A model generated the notes under the pieces. That model was not told the origin of the DNA. It did not search any database and worked only from the letters and a program-made list of their open reading frames with translations. The position numbers and the translations under genes were made by a program. A stretch of 64,000 nt of DNA. It comes from an uncultured bacterium (lineage in GTDB: Bacteria; Cyanobacteriota; Vampirovibrionia; Gastranaerophilales; Gastranaerophilaceae). Location: contig CASEDF010000003.1 of NCBI GenBank assembly GCA_949286705.1, positions 62,474-126,473 of the forward strand, in the 5' to 3' direction. This document shows positions 7,352 through 62,126 of the stretch, piece by piece; position 1 is the stretch's first letter; each line of letters opens with the position of its first letter.

Positions 7352-7431
7352 CTTATTCACTTCTTAGTGCCTTACTTAGTATCTTAGTAACTTTAACATG
7401 AGAACGCAGGTTGGGCATACCTACCCAACAG
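7352..7431. repeat. TAAG-octad repeat arm plus GTTGGG hairpin
   Basis: On the minus strand TAAG-type units recur at about 8-bp steps (plus-strand CTTA at 7352, 7363, 7371, 7375, 7383, then 7391 CTTT). The preceding 7313-7351 (ATTAATCTGTGCGG to TATATAAC) matches the core of the elements at 47030, 55535 and 61932. GTTGGG/CCCAAC (7410-7429) is a diverged member of the small hairpin family. Confidence 0.75.
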
Positions 7432-18734: not shown

Positions 18735-18787
18735 ATTTTTCCGCTGTTAAAACTTTGAAAAGGCCGCAATGGCGGAAAGAAGGTTAC

Positions 18788-18850
18788 TAAGATACTAAGA
18801 TATTAAGGCACTAAGAAGTTACTGTCGGATTAGTAAATCAGACCTACTAC
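18788..18850. repeat. TAAG-octad array followed by GTCGG hairpin
   Basis: TAAG at 18788, 18796, 18804 and 18812, exactly 8 bp apart, then a GTCGGATT-AGTA-AATCAGAC hairpin (18824-18843, one mismatch) followed by CTAC. Lies between convergent genes. Confidence 0.85.
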
Positions 18851-26150: not shown

Positions 26151-26208
26151 TAAGATATTAAGGCAGCAGGATAGTAAGGATTTACTGTCGGATAAGCCGA
26201 CCTGCAGT
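26151..26208. repeat. TAAG-octad array followed by GTCGG hairpin
   Basis: TAAG at 26151, 26159 and 26175 with a degenerate CAGG at 26167 in register; then stem GTCGG/CCGAC (26187-26191, 26197-26201) and CTGCAG. Confidence 0.75.
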
Positions 26209-45787: not shown

Positions 45788-46879
45788 TTGCAGGTATCGG
45801 AATATGATTACGAACTGCCCGAAGAATTAATAGCGCAAATGCCTGCCGACAAACGCGAAAATTCCCGAATGCTTGTACTTAATCCGGAAGAACAGACGAT
45901 TGAGCACAAGCATTTTTACGATATAGTCGATTTGCTGGATGAGAATACATTGCTTGTAATGAATAATACAAAAGTGCTTCCGGCAAGGCTGTACGGAACA
46001 AAAGACACAGGCGCGCGGATTGAAGTATTTTTGCTGGAATCAAAAGCGGGGGTAAATGAGGGGGAAAATGCGGAGGTAAAAGACGGCAAAAACTGGTCAT
46101 GCCTTATAAAGCCGTCAAAACGTGTAAAGCCCGATACGATAATTAAAATAAGTAATGAATTAAGCGTGCGCGTCATAAAGCGGCTTGAAGAGGACGGCGA
46201 ATGGCTTGTTGAGATGATTTATGACGGGGATTTGTTTGAGATACTGCATAAAGTCGGGAATATACCGCTTCCGCCGTACATAGAGCGCAAACTTCAAACA
46301 GAGGAGATAAAAAAAATTGACACTGAGCGCTACCAGACGGTTTACGCAAAAGATGAAGGTTCGGTTGCAGCGCCGACTGCAGGATTGCATTTTACAAAAG
46401 AGATATTGAAAAAACTGGAAGAAAAAGGTGTAGAGACGGCTTACGTAACGCTTAACGTGGGTCTCGGGACGTTCAGACCCGTAAAATGCGAGCGGATAGA
46501 AGACCATAAAATGCACTCGGAAACCTTTGAAATAAGCGAAGAAACAGCAGCCGTAATAAACCGTGCGAAATCCGCCGGCAAAAAGCTTATAGCAGTAGGC
46601 ACAACGACCGTCAGAACTCTGGAGACCGCATACAAACAATTCGGCTGCATAAAGGCTTGTAAAAGTGCGTCGGAATTATTCATTTACCCGCCTTATGAAT
46701 TCAAGGTTATCGACGGGCTTATAACGAACTTTCACCTGCCGAAATCAACGCTTTTAATGCTTGTGAGCGCTCTTGCGGGGAAAGAATTTATCTTTAAAGC
46801 TTATAAAGAAGCCGTAAAAGAGCGTTACAGGTTCTTTTCCTACGGGGATTGTATGTTTATTAAGTCGTTAAGTCGATAA
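45788..46879 (+). CDS. queA: S-adenosylmethionine:tRNA ribosyltransferase-isomerase
   Basis: 363 residues from TTG 45788 after AAGGAG. Motifs: SEYDYELPEELIAQ, NNTKVLPARLYG, VAAPTAGLHFT and FHLPKSTLLMLVSALAG. Makes epoxyqueuosine-type precursor on tRNA. The C-terminal residues after CMFI (KSLSR) and the stop codon are encoded by a TAAG array that starts at 46861. Confidence 0.93.
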   Translation: MQVSEYDYELPEELIAQMPADKRENSRMLVLNPEEQTIEHKHFYDIVDLLDENTLLVMNNTKVLPARLYGTKDTGARIEVFLLESKAGVNEGENAEVKDGKNWSCLIKPSKRVKPDTIIKISNELSVRVIKRLEEDGEWLVEMIYDGDLFEILHKVGNIPLPPYIERKLQTEEIKKIDTERYQTVYAKDEGSVAAPTAGLHFTKEILKKLEEKGVETAYVTLNVGLGTFRPVKCERIEDHKMHSETFEISEETAAVINRAKSAGKKLIAVGTTTVRTLETAYKQFGCIKACKSASELFIYPPYEFKVIDGLITNFHLPKSTLLMLVSALAGKEFIFKAYKEAVKERYRFFSYGDCMFIKSLSR

Positions 46880-46980
46880 GACGTTGGGTTGTTAAGTGCG
46901 TTTCATTAATCAGATTGTAGGTCGGATTTACTAATCCGACAGAAATTTTATTGTCGGCATAGTAATGCCGACCTACAGTA
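46861..46980. repeat. TAAG array overlapping queA 3' end, plus two GTCGG hairpins
   Basis: TAAG at 46861, 46869, 46877 and 46893 (TGGG at 46885) in 8-bp register; then a core fragment TTTCATTAATCAG, then hairpins 46921-46940 (GTCGGATT-TACT-AATCCGAC) and 46953-46972 (GTCGGCAT-AGTA-ATGCCGAC) facing each other. Confidence 0.9.
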
Positions 46981-46987
46981 TGTTTAT

Positions 46988-47106
46988 TGAGTGAATAAAG
47001 GAATAAGTGAATAATGGAATAAGTTGTATCATAGATTAATCTGTGCGGGATTTCTCCAAGATTGCTTTTTATATAACACTTATTAACTTATTCACTTATT
47101 CCCTTG
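46988..47106. repeat. palindromic TAAG-octad element, core type A
   Basis: Left arm TGAG, TAAA, TAAG, TAAT, TAAG at 46988, 46996, 47004, 47012, 47020; right arm CTTA at 47079, 47087, 47095 and CTTG at 47103. Core 47030-47078 contains GATTAATCTGTGCGG and TATATAACA. Together with 46861-46980 it fills the 304-bp gap between queA and the transglycosylase. Confidence 0.88.
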
Positions 47107-47183: not shown

Positions 47184-47903
47184 ATGTTTTCAGAAATGAT
47201 ACAAAGAATGCTGAATAGCGGCGGACAGGCAGCAGCAATTCAAAGAGCCGCGCAGATGAATCAGTATGTAAATAATTTTTATAAGACAAAAAACGTAACA
47301 CAGGCGAATATAAATACGATTCTTCCGCCGTCAAACCCCAACGTGCAATCATTTGAAAATGTTCTTTCTTCAACGCAAAAAGTAAACTTCGGCAATCTGC
47401 TTTTAAATCCGGAATCAATGAAAGTTAAGGCGGAACTTGCAAAAACAAATCCGACGGAAAGTCTTAATAACGCGCTTATGCAGGCGGCAGCAGCTAATAA
47501 CGGAATAGGGAATATCAACAACCCTTCCAAAAGCCAGATTATGAACATGGTCGAACAAATTGCCAAAAAACACGGAGTAGACGATAAATTAGTAAAAGCG
47601 CTAATCAAACAGGAATCAGGCTTTAACCCTGATGCGAAATCCAAAGCCGGCGCTATGGGATTAATGCAATTGATGCCTGCGACAGCCAAGGGTTTGGGGG
47701 TAACTGACGCTTATAATCCCGTCCAAAACGTAGACGGCGGCGTAAGATATTTAAAATCCATGCTTAATAAATATAACGGCAACGTAATTCTGGCGCTTGC
47801 GGCATACAATGCCGGTCCCGGCGCTGTTGACAAATATGACGGTGTTCCGCCATATAAAGAAACCCAAAATTACGTAAAAAATATTCTGGCGAATTATTTG
47901 TAA
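47184..47903 (+). CDS. SLT-type lytic transglycosylase
   Basis: 239 residues. Catalytic Glu in [15 protein letters not shown], then [10 protein letters not shown] and [13 protein letters not shown] near the C-terminus. No signal peptide; N-terminal 120 residues are Asn/Gln/Ala-rich and disordered. Cuts peptidoglycan, possibly for flagellum or pilus assembly. A TAAG array begins immediately after its stop (47904). Confidence 0.9.
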
Positions 47904-48027
47904 AAAGTCGATAAGTCGTTGAGTCGTTAAGACGGTAAGTTCTTTAATAAAAGCTATTCGAAAATGTGTTAAGACTGATTAATGAAACGTACTTAACGAC
48001 CTAACGTCTTACCGACTTCACGACTTT
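47904..48027. repeat. palindromic TAAG-octad element, core type B
   Basis: Five units per arm in exact register: 47904, 47912, 47920, 47928, 47936 (AAAG, TAAG, TGAG, TAAG, TAAG) and 47992, 48000, 48008, 48016, 48024 on the other side. The core reads, in reverse, TTTCATTAATCAGTCTTA to CTTTTATTAAAG, as at 51135. Confidence 0.92.
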
Positions 48028-51134: not shown

Positions 51135-51246
51135 TAAGACTTTAAGACGTTAAGTCGTTAAGACGATAAGTGCATTTCATTAATCAGTCTTAGCGCAATA
51201 TCACCAAAACAGCTTTTATTAAAGAACTTAACGTCTTAACGACTTT
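51135..51246. repeat. palindromic TAAG-octad element, core type B
   Basis: TAAG at 51135, 51143, 51151, 51159 and 51167 exactly 8 bp apart; right arm CTTA at 51227, 51235 and CTTT at 51243. Core TTTCATTAATCAGTCTTAGCG to CTTTTATTAAAG. Confidence 0.92.
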
Positions 51247-51265
51247 TTATCATGCTTAAGGCACC

Positions 51266-55506: not shown

Positions 55507-55655
55507 AAAGTGAATAAGGGAATAAGTTGTATCATAGATTAATCTATGCGGGAGTTCTCCAATTTTCATTTTATATAACGAATGATATAACACCTCACGC
55601 CACTCACTTCACTCACTCTAAAAACTTCTTACTGTCCCAGTATCTTAGTAACTTT
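55507..55655. repeat. palindromic TAAG-octad element, core type A
   Basis: TAAA, TAAG, TAAG at 55507, 55515, 55523; CTTA-type units at 55628, 55636, 55644 and 55652. Core GATTAATCTATGCGGG to TATATAACG, with an extra CTCAC-rich stretch in the right half. Confidence 0.85.
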
Positions 55656-55677
55656 TATCAAAGATTCTAAAAAACTG

Positions 55678-61900: not shown

Positions 61901-62028
61901 AAAGGGAATGAGGGAATAAGTTATTTCTAAAATTAATCTGAACAAATTTTTTCAATATCAACTTTATATAACGCTTATTTACTTCTTAGCGCCTCAGTAT
62001 CTTAGAGCCTTAGTATCTTAGTAACTTT
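61901..62028. repeat. TAAG-octad element, core type A
   Basis: AAAG, TGAG, TAAG at 61901, 61909, 61917; right arm CTTA-type units at 61985, 61993, 62001, 62009, 62017 and 62025, all 8 bp apart. Core with ATTAATCTG and TATATAACG. The 321-bp gap 61806-62126 holds this and the clpC promoter only. Confidence 0.9.
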
Positions 62029-62126
62029 TACACATTTGACTTTTTTAAAAAAATCATTAAATCTCATACAAACAGATGTTTATTACATTTGATTAATCAT
62101 TCATAATGAATGCAAGAAAGTGTAAT

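Follow-up and report, generated by a model that had tools for sequence, protein, structure and literature searches.

Among described genetic elements, the closest counterparts of the repeats considered here are the intervening sequences (IVS) of 23S rRNA genes, as in Leptospira and Coxiella, in which a palindromic stem likewise surrounds an ORF of family PF05635 and from which the insert is known to be excised by RNase III. The product of this ORF, the 23S rRNA intervening-sequence protein (S23), is a four-helix bundle, and two solved relatives (2gsc and 2rld) contain five chains each. In the passages of one study that treat this family, the Xanthomonas S23 is described as a homopentameric toroid, the S23/IVS proteins as a family without known function, the mobility of their ORFs as a hypothesis alone, and the Coxiella IVS as preceded by heptameric repeats in variable number (PMC4990558). 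Two further systems invite comparison. The GTAG and CGTC REPs, with their RAYTs, are also dispersed intergenic palindromes that are rare in divergent gaps. The BrickBuilt MITE of Porphyromonas gingivalis likewise sets tandem units between small inverted ends, but its units are 23 nt long, it belongs to one species, and its published summary makes no mention of PF05635 (PMC4596501).

The stretch analyzed here (the window; 64,000 nucleotides) comes from a Gastranaerophilales genome of 1.85 Mb in 41 contigs. It carries palindromes whose arms repeat TAAG every 8 bp, and these probably belong, as gene-less members, to a mobile-palindrome family whose complete forms contain the S23 gene. Unlike the 23S IVS, the octad elements lie between protein ORFs or at ORF ends and not inside a 23S rRNA gene, are present in many copies, mostly lack a gene, and have arms of about five words. 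An RNA-family search of the window recovered five tRNAs alone, with no rRNA family match and no known RNA family at the octads. The IVS-like stem is present at window copies 46988, 47904, and 51135; a PF05635 ORF in the loop is absent from the window's genome and present in cognate elements of its relatives. The octads are also nested with GTAG and CGTC REPs, which themselves contain no octads, and the octad arms do not have the REP signature of a GTAG or CGTC tag beside a short palindrome. The arms differ from BrickBuilt in their word length, with a period of 8 bp at the octads and mostly 7–9 bp at other loci.

The octad palindromes are genuine and lie far above chance. On either strand of the window, (TAAGN4)x3 occurs eight times, against a mean of 0.00 and a maximum of 0 in 60 dinucleotide shuffles, and the intergenic part holds seven such triplets, against a maximum of one in 300 shuffles. 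TAAG triplets appear at period 8 alone, with zero at all other periods from 5 to 14. Over 431 kb of the window's genome, the distances between TAAG pairs peak at 8, 16, and 24 bp (47, 33, and 18 vs. approximately 6), and four-unit matches genome-wide number 40, against one in a reversed control. A first-pass annotation, made from the letters of the window, had proposed a dispersed element with an octad grammar of its own, and this is borne out by the register relative to shuffled DNA, the 8-bp periodicity, and the genome-wide copies. The grammar is not peculiar to this genome: in Flavobacterium, a CTAAG pattern gave 158 and 177 matches, against 0 in controls. The matches listed from a collection scan, which include many plain exact tandem repeats, also place octad palindromes in other bacteria, Prevotella-like ones among them, and in further genera of the window genome's family.

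Arms follow the pattern [AAAG N4][TAAG N4]n, with AAAG in the outermost slot of 39 of 86 Gastranaerophilales arms and 19 of 52 Flavobacterium arms (against approximately 1% in the background). Spacer bases define three arm types: A (ATAC, TTAC, GCAC, GCAG), B (GGAA, TGAA, TAAA), and C (TCGT, ACGT, ACGA). The copy at 47904–48027 is a type C palindrome that starts immediately 3′ of the stop codon of ORF 47184–47903. Its left arm (47904–47939) and right arm (47992–48027) enclose a core and have five slots each, as first described; not every slot is exact, however, the left arm reading AAAG, TAAG, TGAG, TAAG, TAAG and the right arm, from the outside in, AAAG, GAAG, TAAG, TAGG, TAAG. The two arms are identical at 28 of 36 bases, and the palindrome folds with z −3.2. 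Two others fold as well: a type B palindrome at 46988–47106 (five-slot left arm 46988–47023, core 47024–47078, right arm 47079–47106; z −4.3) and a type C palindrome at 51135–51247 (five-slot left arm 51135–51174, core, and a shorter right arm; z −5.6). Copies at 55507 and 61901, listed initially as palindromes alongside these three, are instead asymmetric composites that do not fold. The first (55507–55656; z −0.39) consists of a three-slot B-type left arm, a core, TGAG 9-mers in reverse complement, and an A-type right arm; the second (61901–62030; z +1.17) of a three-slot B-type left arm, a core, and an A-type right arm. The TGAG words recur every 9 bp across 55590–55640 (reverse complement), forming a second word array, similar to the arms that flank a PF05635 gene in another genome (G340, L343).

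Partial copies are found as well. A type C left arm and the start of a C core lie on the forward strand at 46861–46917 (TAAG, TAAG, TAAG, TGGG, TAAG), overlapping the 3′ end of ORF 45788–46879 and followed by GTAG-type REPs. Single type A arms occupy 18780–18819 (forward strand; AAGG and four TAAG slots, then a GTAG-type REP) and, in degenerate form, 26151–26188 (forward strand), while 7352–7404, on the reverse strand, lies downstream from a B core and consists of right arms alone, first B-type and next A-type. Left arms of five slots are thus found also at 46861, 46988, 51135, and 18780. The reported agreement of spacers between the arms of one copy holds mainly through family membership: a copy belongs to a single family, which makes its spacers alike, and word by word, shuffled partners match nearly as well. 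Relative to shuffled partners, exact-word pairing gave p = 0.02 in Gastranaerophilales (n = 11) and p = 0.09 in Flavobacterium (n = 20), and base-level pairing p = 0.58 (n = 7) and p = 0.011 (n = 20), respectively.

The partner gene emerged from Flavobacterium, where one octad loop is filled by a 119-aa ORF that matches PF05635 (E 2e-43) and, more weakly, bAvd (E 8e-8). A transposase or binding protein matching the repeats had been named as something to look for; the protein found, PF05635, is neither a transposase nor a known operator-binding protein, and no catalytic domain was found. A PF05635 search of 62 genomes returned matches in 39 and none in 14 control genomes, and several matches coincide with octad arrays that had been found independently (G013:C12, G001:C49, G009:C18, G009:C24, G014:C38, G071:C61, and G063:C15). 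We examined 90 copies, comprising those with loci and 60 hand-picked search rows rather than all rows, and the ORF is present at 90 of 90. Flanking inverted repeats score above the 95% point for mismatched pairings at 81 of these loci (median score 25, vs. 10 for mismatched pairings) and the 99% point at 38, against 6 of 715 control genes, the same 6 of 715 scoring above 25. Nine loci miss the cut, among them three (L341, L346, and L365) that still show short arms by eye. The arms at PF05635 genes are tandem words of 7–10 bp, of which the TAAG octad is one of many; others include CAAAG and GGTTGAT. The best word period at the 81 loci is 8 in 23, 7 in 18, 14 in 5, 9 in 3, 10 in 1, and 6 in 1, with no clear period in 30, and 35 of 1620 shuffled arms pass the word-period cut.

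Units per arm peak at five in Flavobacterium (38 of 65 arms, vs. 9.4 expected under a geometric law) and in Gastranaerophilales (49 of 120, vs. 16.6), and arms at PF05635 genes have five units in 59 of 131 cases (3–9 units, periods 7–10, with one further arm of 10 units outside this set), counted at the 66 loci whose two arms each show a clear word, at one common period. The simplest reading is one word per S23 subunit: arms would have five words because a toroidal homopentamer reads one word with each subunit. Tandem words could also come from plain microsatellites that expanded by slippage and then folded as quasi-palindromes. Unit numbers do differ between the window's genome and a same-genus genome at the same copy, and many of the listed collection matches are plain tandem repeats, but slippage accounts poorly for the sharp peak at five, a fixed motif with varied spacers, the inverted arrangement, and a PF05635 gene between the arms, and we regard this origin as very unlikely.

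All three arm types of the window have gene-bearing cognates in the same genus: A arms enclose PF05635 in G009 and G011, B arms in G009 and G013, and C arms in G001 and G014. The PF05635 protein tree tracks the arm word and not the insertion site. Among 25 tree rows, A-arm proteins cluster across two sites (support 96/92), B-arm and C-arm proteins form clades with support of 100/99 and 99/98, and proteins with TGAAG arms, from two genera and sites, cluster with support of 98/96. A Mantel test restricted to different-site pairs correlates protein identity with arm similarity across 80 loci (r = 0.166, p = 0.0005), after loci with inverted-repeat scores up to 16 were dropped; L345, identical in place and sequence to L344, was dropped from this set and from the unit counts. 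The correlation is small, clear for close proteins and weak for distant ones, and agreement fades below approximately 60% identity (nearest-neighbor mean rank fraction 0.33).

The PF05635 search gave no match in the window's own genome, and none was found in octad-rich genomes G003 and G010 (G079 is probably the same genome as G003, by its identical counts). Within the genus, the gene occurs in five of eight octad-rich genomes and zero of eight octad-poor ones (p = 0.026). Where it is lacking, the gene may have been lost, it may lie in an assembly gap, or something else may drive the elements. Sequence comparison gave no support for the B core being a deletion product of a gene-bearing B element, finding no trace of such elements in the gene-less B core; the C core shows weak traces of gene-bearing C elements (p = 0.007 and 0.03, uncorrected, in 33 comparisons).

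The octad elements are insertions. Several element-bearing gaps of the window's genome are short and element-free in same-genus genomes, which supplies the empty sites in relatives that the first-pass annotation had proposed as a check. The element of the 47904 copy is absent from its junction in relatives, and the gap behind ORF 47184–47903 holds a C element in the window's genome and a B element in G009 and G011. The 51135 copy is common to G009, with an identical core and differing unit numbers, and the 61901 copy is common to G011. Like MITEs, the octad elements have terminal inverted repeats and sites that are empty in related genomes; unlike a MITE with a transposase-bearing parent, their probable parent carries PF05635. 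By eye, no clear target-site duplication was seen at the compared junctions. Gene names here and below (nusA with rimP, kdpB and kdpC, groEL, and the pilin-like genes) are tentative. The most informative junction, before what we take to be nusA, is readable in 13 of 16 same-genus genomes and presents a decay series of complete elements, an internally deleted gene, and the empty state. It is empty in four genomes by script (23–27 bp, the window's genome included) and in two more by eye; two genomes have a B element with the PF05635 gene and two a C element with the gene; and in G007, read by eye, the arms surround an internally deleted PF05635 ORF whose 30-residue remnant has no Pfam match.

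In the remaining two genomes, the same junction (L415 in G011:C2 and L417 in G002:C5) contains a gene for a 96-aa GIY-YIG nuclease (PF01541, E 3e-16) between CGTC-type palindromes (CGTCATTCTGAGCGAAGCGAAGAATCT). This nuclease may be the absent partner of the CGTC REPs, since these reportedly have no dedicated transposase (PMC3733652). A comparable exchange is visible in Flavobacterium. Across 21 species (L272–L292), a junction that is presumably kdpB–kdpC is empty, holds octad elements, or holds unrelated palindromes, so that different kinds of palindrome swap with one another in one gap. Close relatives have strongly scrambled gene orders (G000:C3, in the window's genome, vs. G009:C31 and G011:C6). 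Octads as rearrangement breakpoints were considered and rejected: in the comparison with G009, octads are found at 8 of 16 broken and 9 of 87 kept junctions, but the excess is no longer significant once short gaps are removed (8 of 15 vs. 9 of 35, p = 0.1), and other comparisons are similar. Breakpoints fall in repeat-rich gaps and not significantly at octads.

A complete element comprises an arm of approximately five words, the PF05635 gene, and an inverted arm of approximately five words. We infer that S23 binds these arms and drives their movement. Each subunit of the homopentamer would recognize one word of the protein's own arms, leaving spacers free between the fixed tetranucleotides; recognition would probably occur on the stem of the palindrome, as RNA or single-stranded DNA, with S23 pairing the two element ends. 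Host or reverse-transcription machinery would then insert the copy into intercistronic gaps, typically right behind a stop codon, and gene-less copies with the same arms would be mobilized in trans and accumulate as in the window. An RNA route is worth considering because S23 is distantly related to Avd, the four-helix-bundle protein of diversity-generating retroelements that acts with a reverse transcriptase; Avd, unlike S23, does not lie in an element with word arms.

It is conceivable, and we offer it tentatively, that these elements form a separate class of mobile DNA without a known transposase, in which a five-subunit ring reads five words, word length (7–10 bp) and sequence form a clade-specific address, mobilization in trans of gene-less copies spans several phyla, and the 23S IVS represent the few members that ended up inside rRNA genes. 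If so, the ring would set the number of words, with their length and sequence varying by clade. S23/IVS ORFs, known for decades without a function, here gain a genome-wide setting, and the likely DNA or RNA partner of S23 is its own five-word arms. The system offers natural cognate pairs, sites in both the occupied and the vacant state, and a graded decay that runs from complete elements to gene-less ones, and would account for many intergenic repeats of Flavobacterium and Gastranaerophilales. In the open-access papers searched, we found no description of PF05635 in such palindromes or of the intergenic octad repeats of these two groups; six arm 12- to 13-mers are printed there in three unrelated papers alone.

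A different account would make the palindromes host-useful hairpins or binding arrays at gene borders (terminators, mRNA stabilizers, or operator arrays), with PF05635 a passenger in a favored site. Folding is strong, with a mean z of −8.2 in Flavobacterium (15 of 15 below −2) and −4.85 in Gastranaerophilales (6 of 7 below −2). Divergent gaps are few among arm-bearing gaps, at 3 of 24 in the window's genome and 1 of 33 in Flavobacterium, vs. 46 of 221 Flavobacterium gaps overall; these counts are approximate, with gene context taken from a simple longest-ORF script, arm-bearing gaps of any length included, and totals restricted to gaps of 60–1500 bp. At one Flavobacterium junction in nine species, moreover, the motif is conserved while spacers are free (pairwise difference 0.042 at CTTAG positions vs. 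0.477 at spacers). Yet near relatives have the junctions empty, different families swap at one junction, and the PF05635 link recurs at many unrelated sites, and this account appears improbable as a whole. Since the motif is kept at that fixed Flavobacterium junction, which would not be expected of a selfish copy once its movement is over, the mobile palindromes may nevertheless have an additional, host-level role.

Mobilization as ordinary REPs, by a RAYT or another Y1 transposase, is the least probable of the alternatives and largely refuted. The window's genome does contain one RAYT-like gene, and by eye, Y1 genes are commoner in the octad-rich genomes of the genus, but arms of at least three units flank 0 of 20 Y1 loci, one of 30 Y1 loci in octad-rich genomes has such an arm, approximately 500 bp away, and G009, with 63 octad matches, has no Y1 match. 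The RAYT loci lack octad arms; that of the window's genome (L031, G000:C2:311–628) lies between GTCGG-type REPs, one of them within the reading frame. A single Y1 locus with TAAG-armed flanks was seen, an IS200-like gene in G026:C176 (L094); the tandem palindromic elements that flank it on either side have two-unit octads as their outer arms, a point in favor of this alternative.

TAA, TGA, or TAG every 8 bp would close three frames in both directions, and the arms could thus be stop-codon cassettes. They start at upstream stop codons, as Flavobacterium arms often do, altered slots are often TGAG or TAGG, and a slot required to stay open inside pilin-like ORFs reads TATG. Stops, however, require neither the fourth-base G nor the preceding C of Flavobacterium, both near invariant; arms antisense to the gene change no less (TGAG in 6 of 66 vs. 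2 of 63); and PF05635 arm words such as CAAAG and GGTTGAT have no stop pattern. The conserved G and C disfavor such cassettes, which we consider highly doubtful. The pilin-like ORFs (so named on our assumption) lie on G000:C1 (L060–L072), where A-type arms occur in or just before them at approximately 16172, 153523–153974, 236138, 250038–250327, and 255477. At four of these places, the arms follow a run of at least nine G near a possible start and include one TATG octad; at 250038, it is this slot that leaves the frame open. These look like phase-variable genes with leader repeats.
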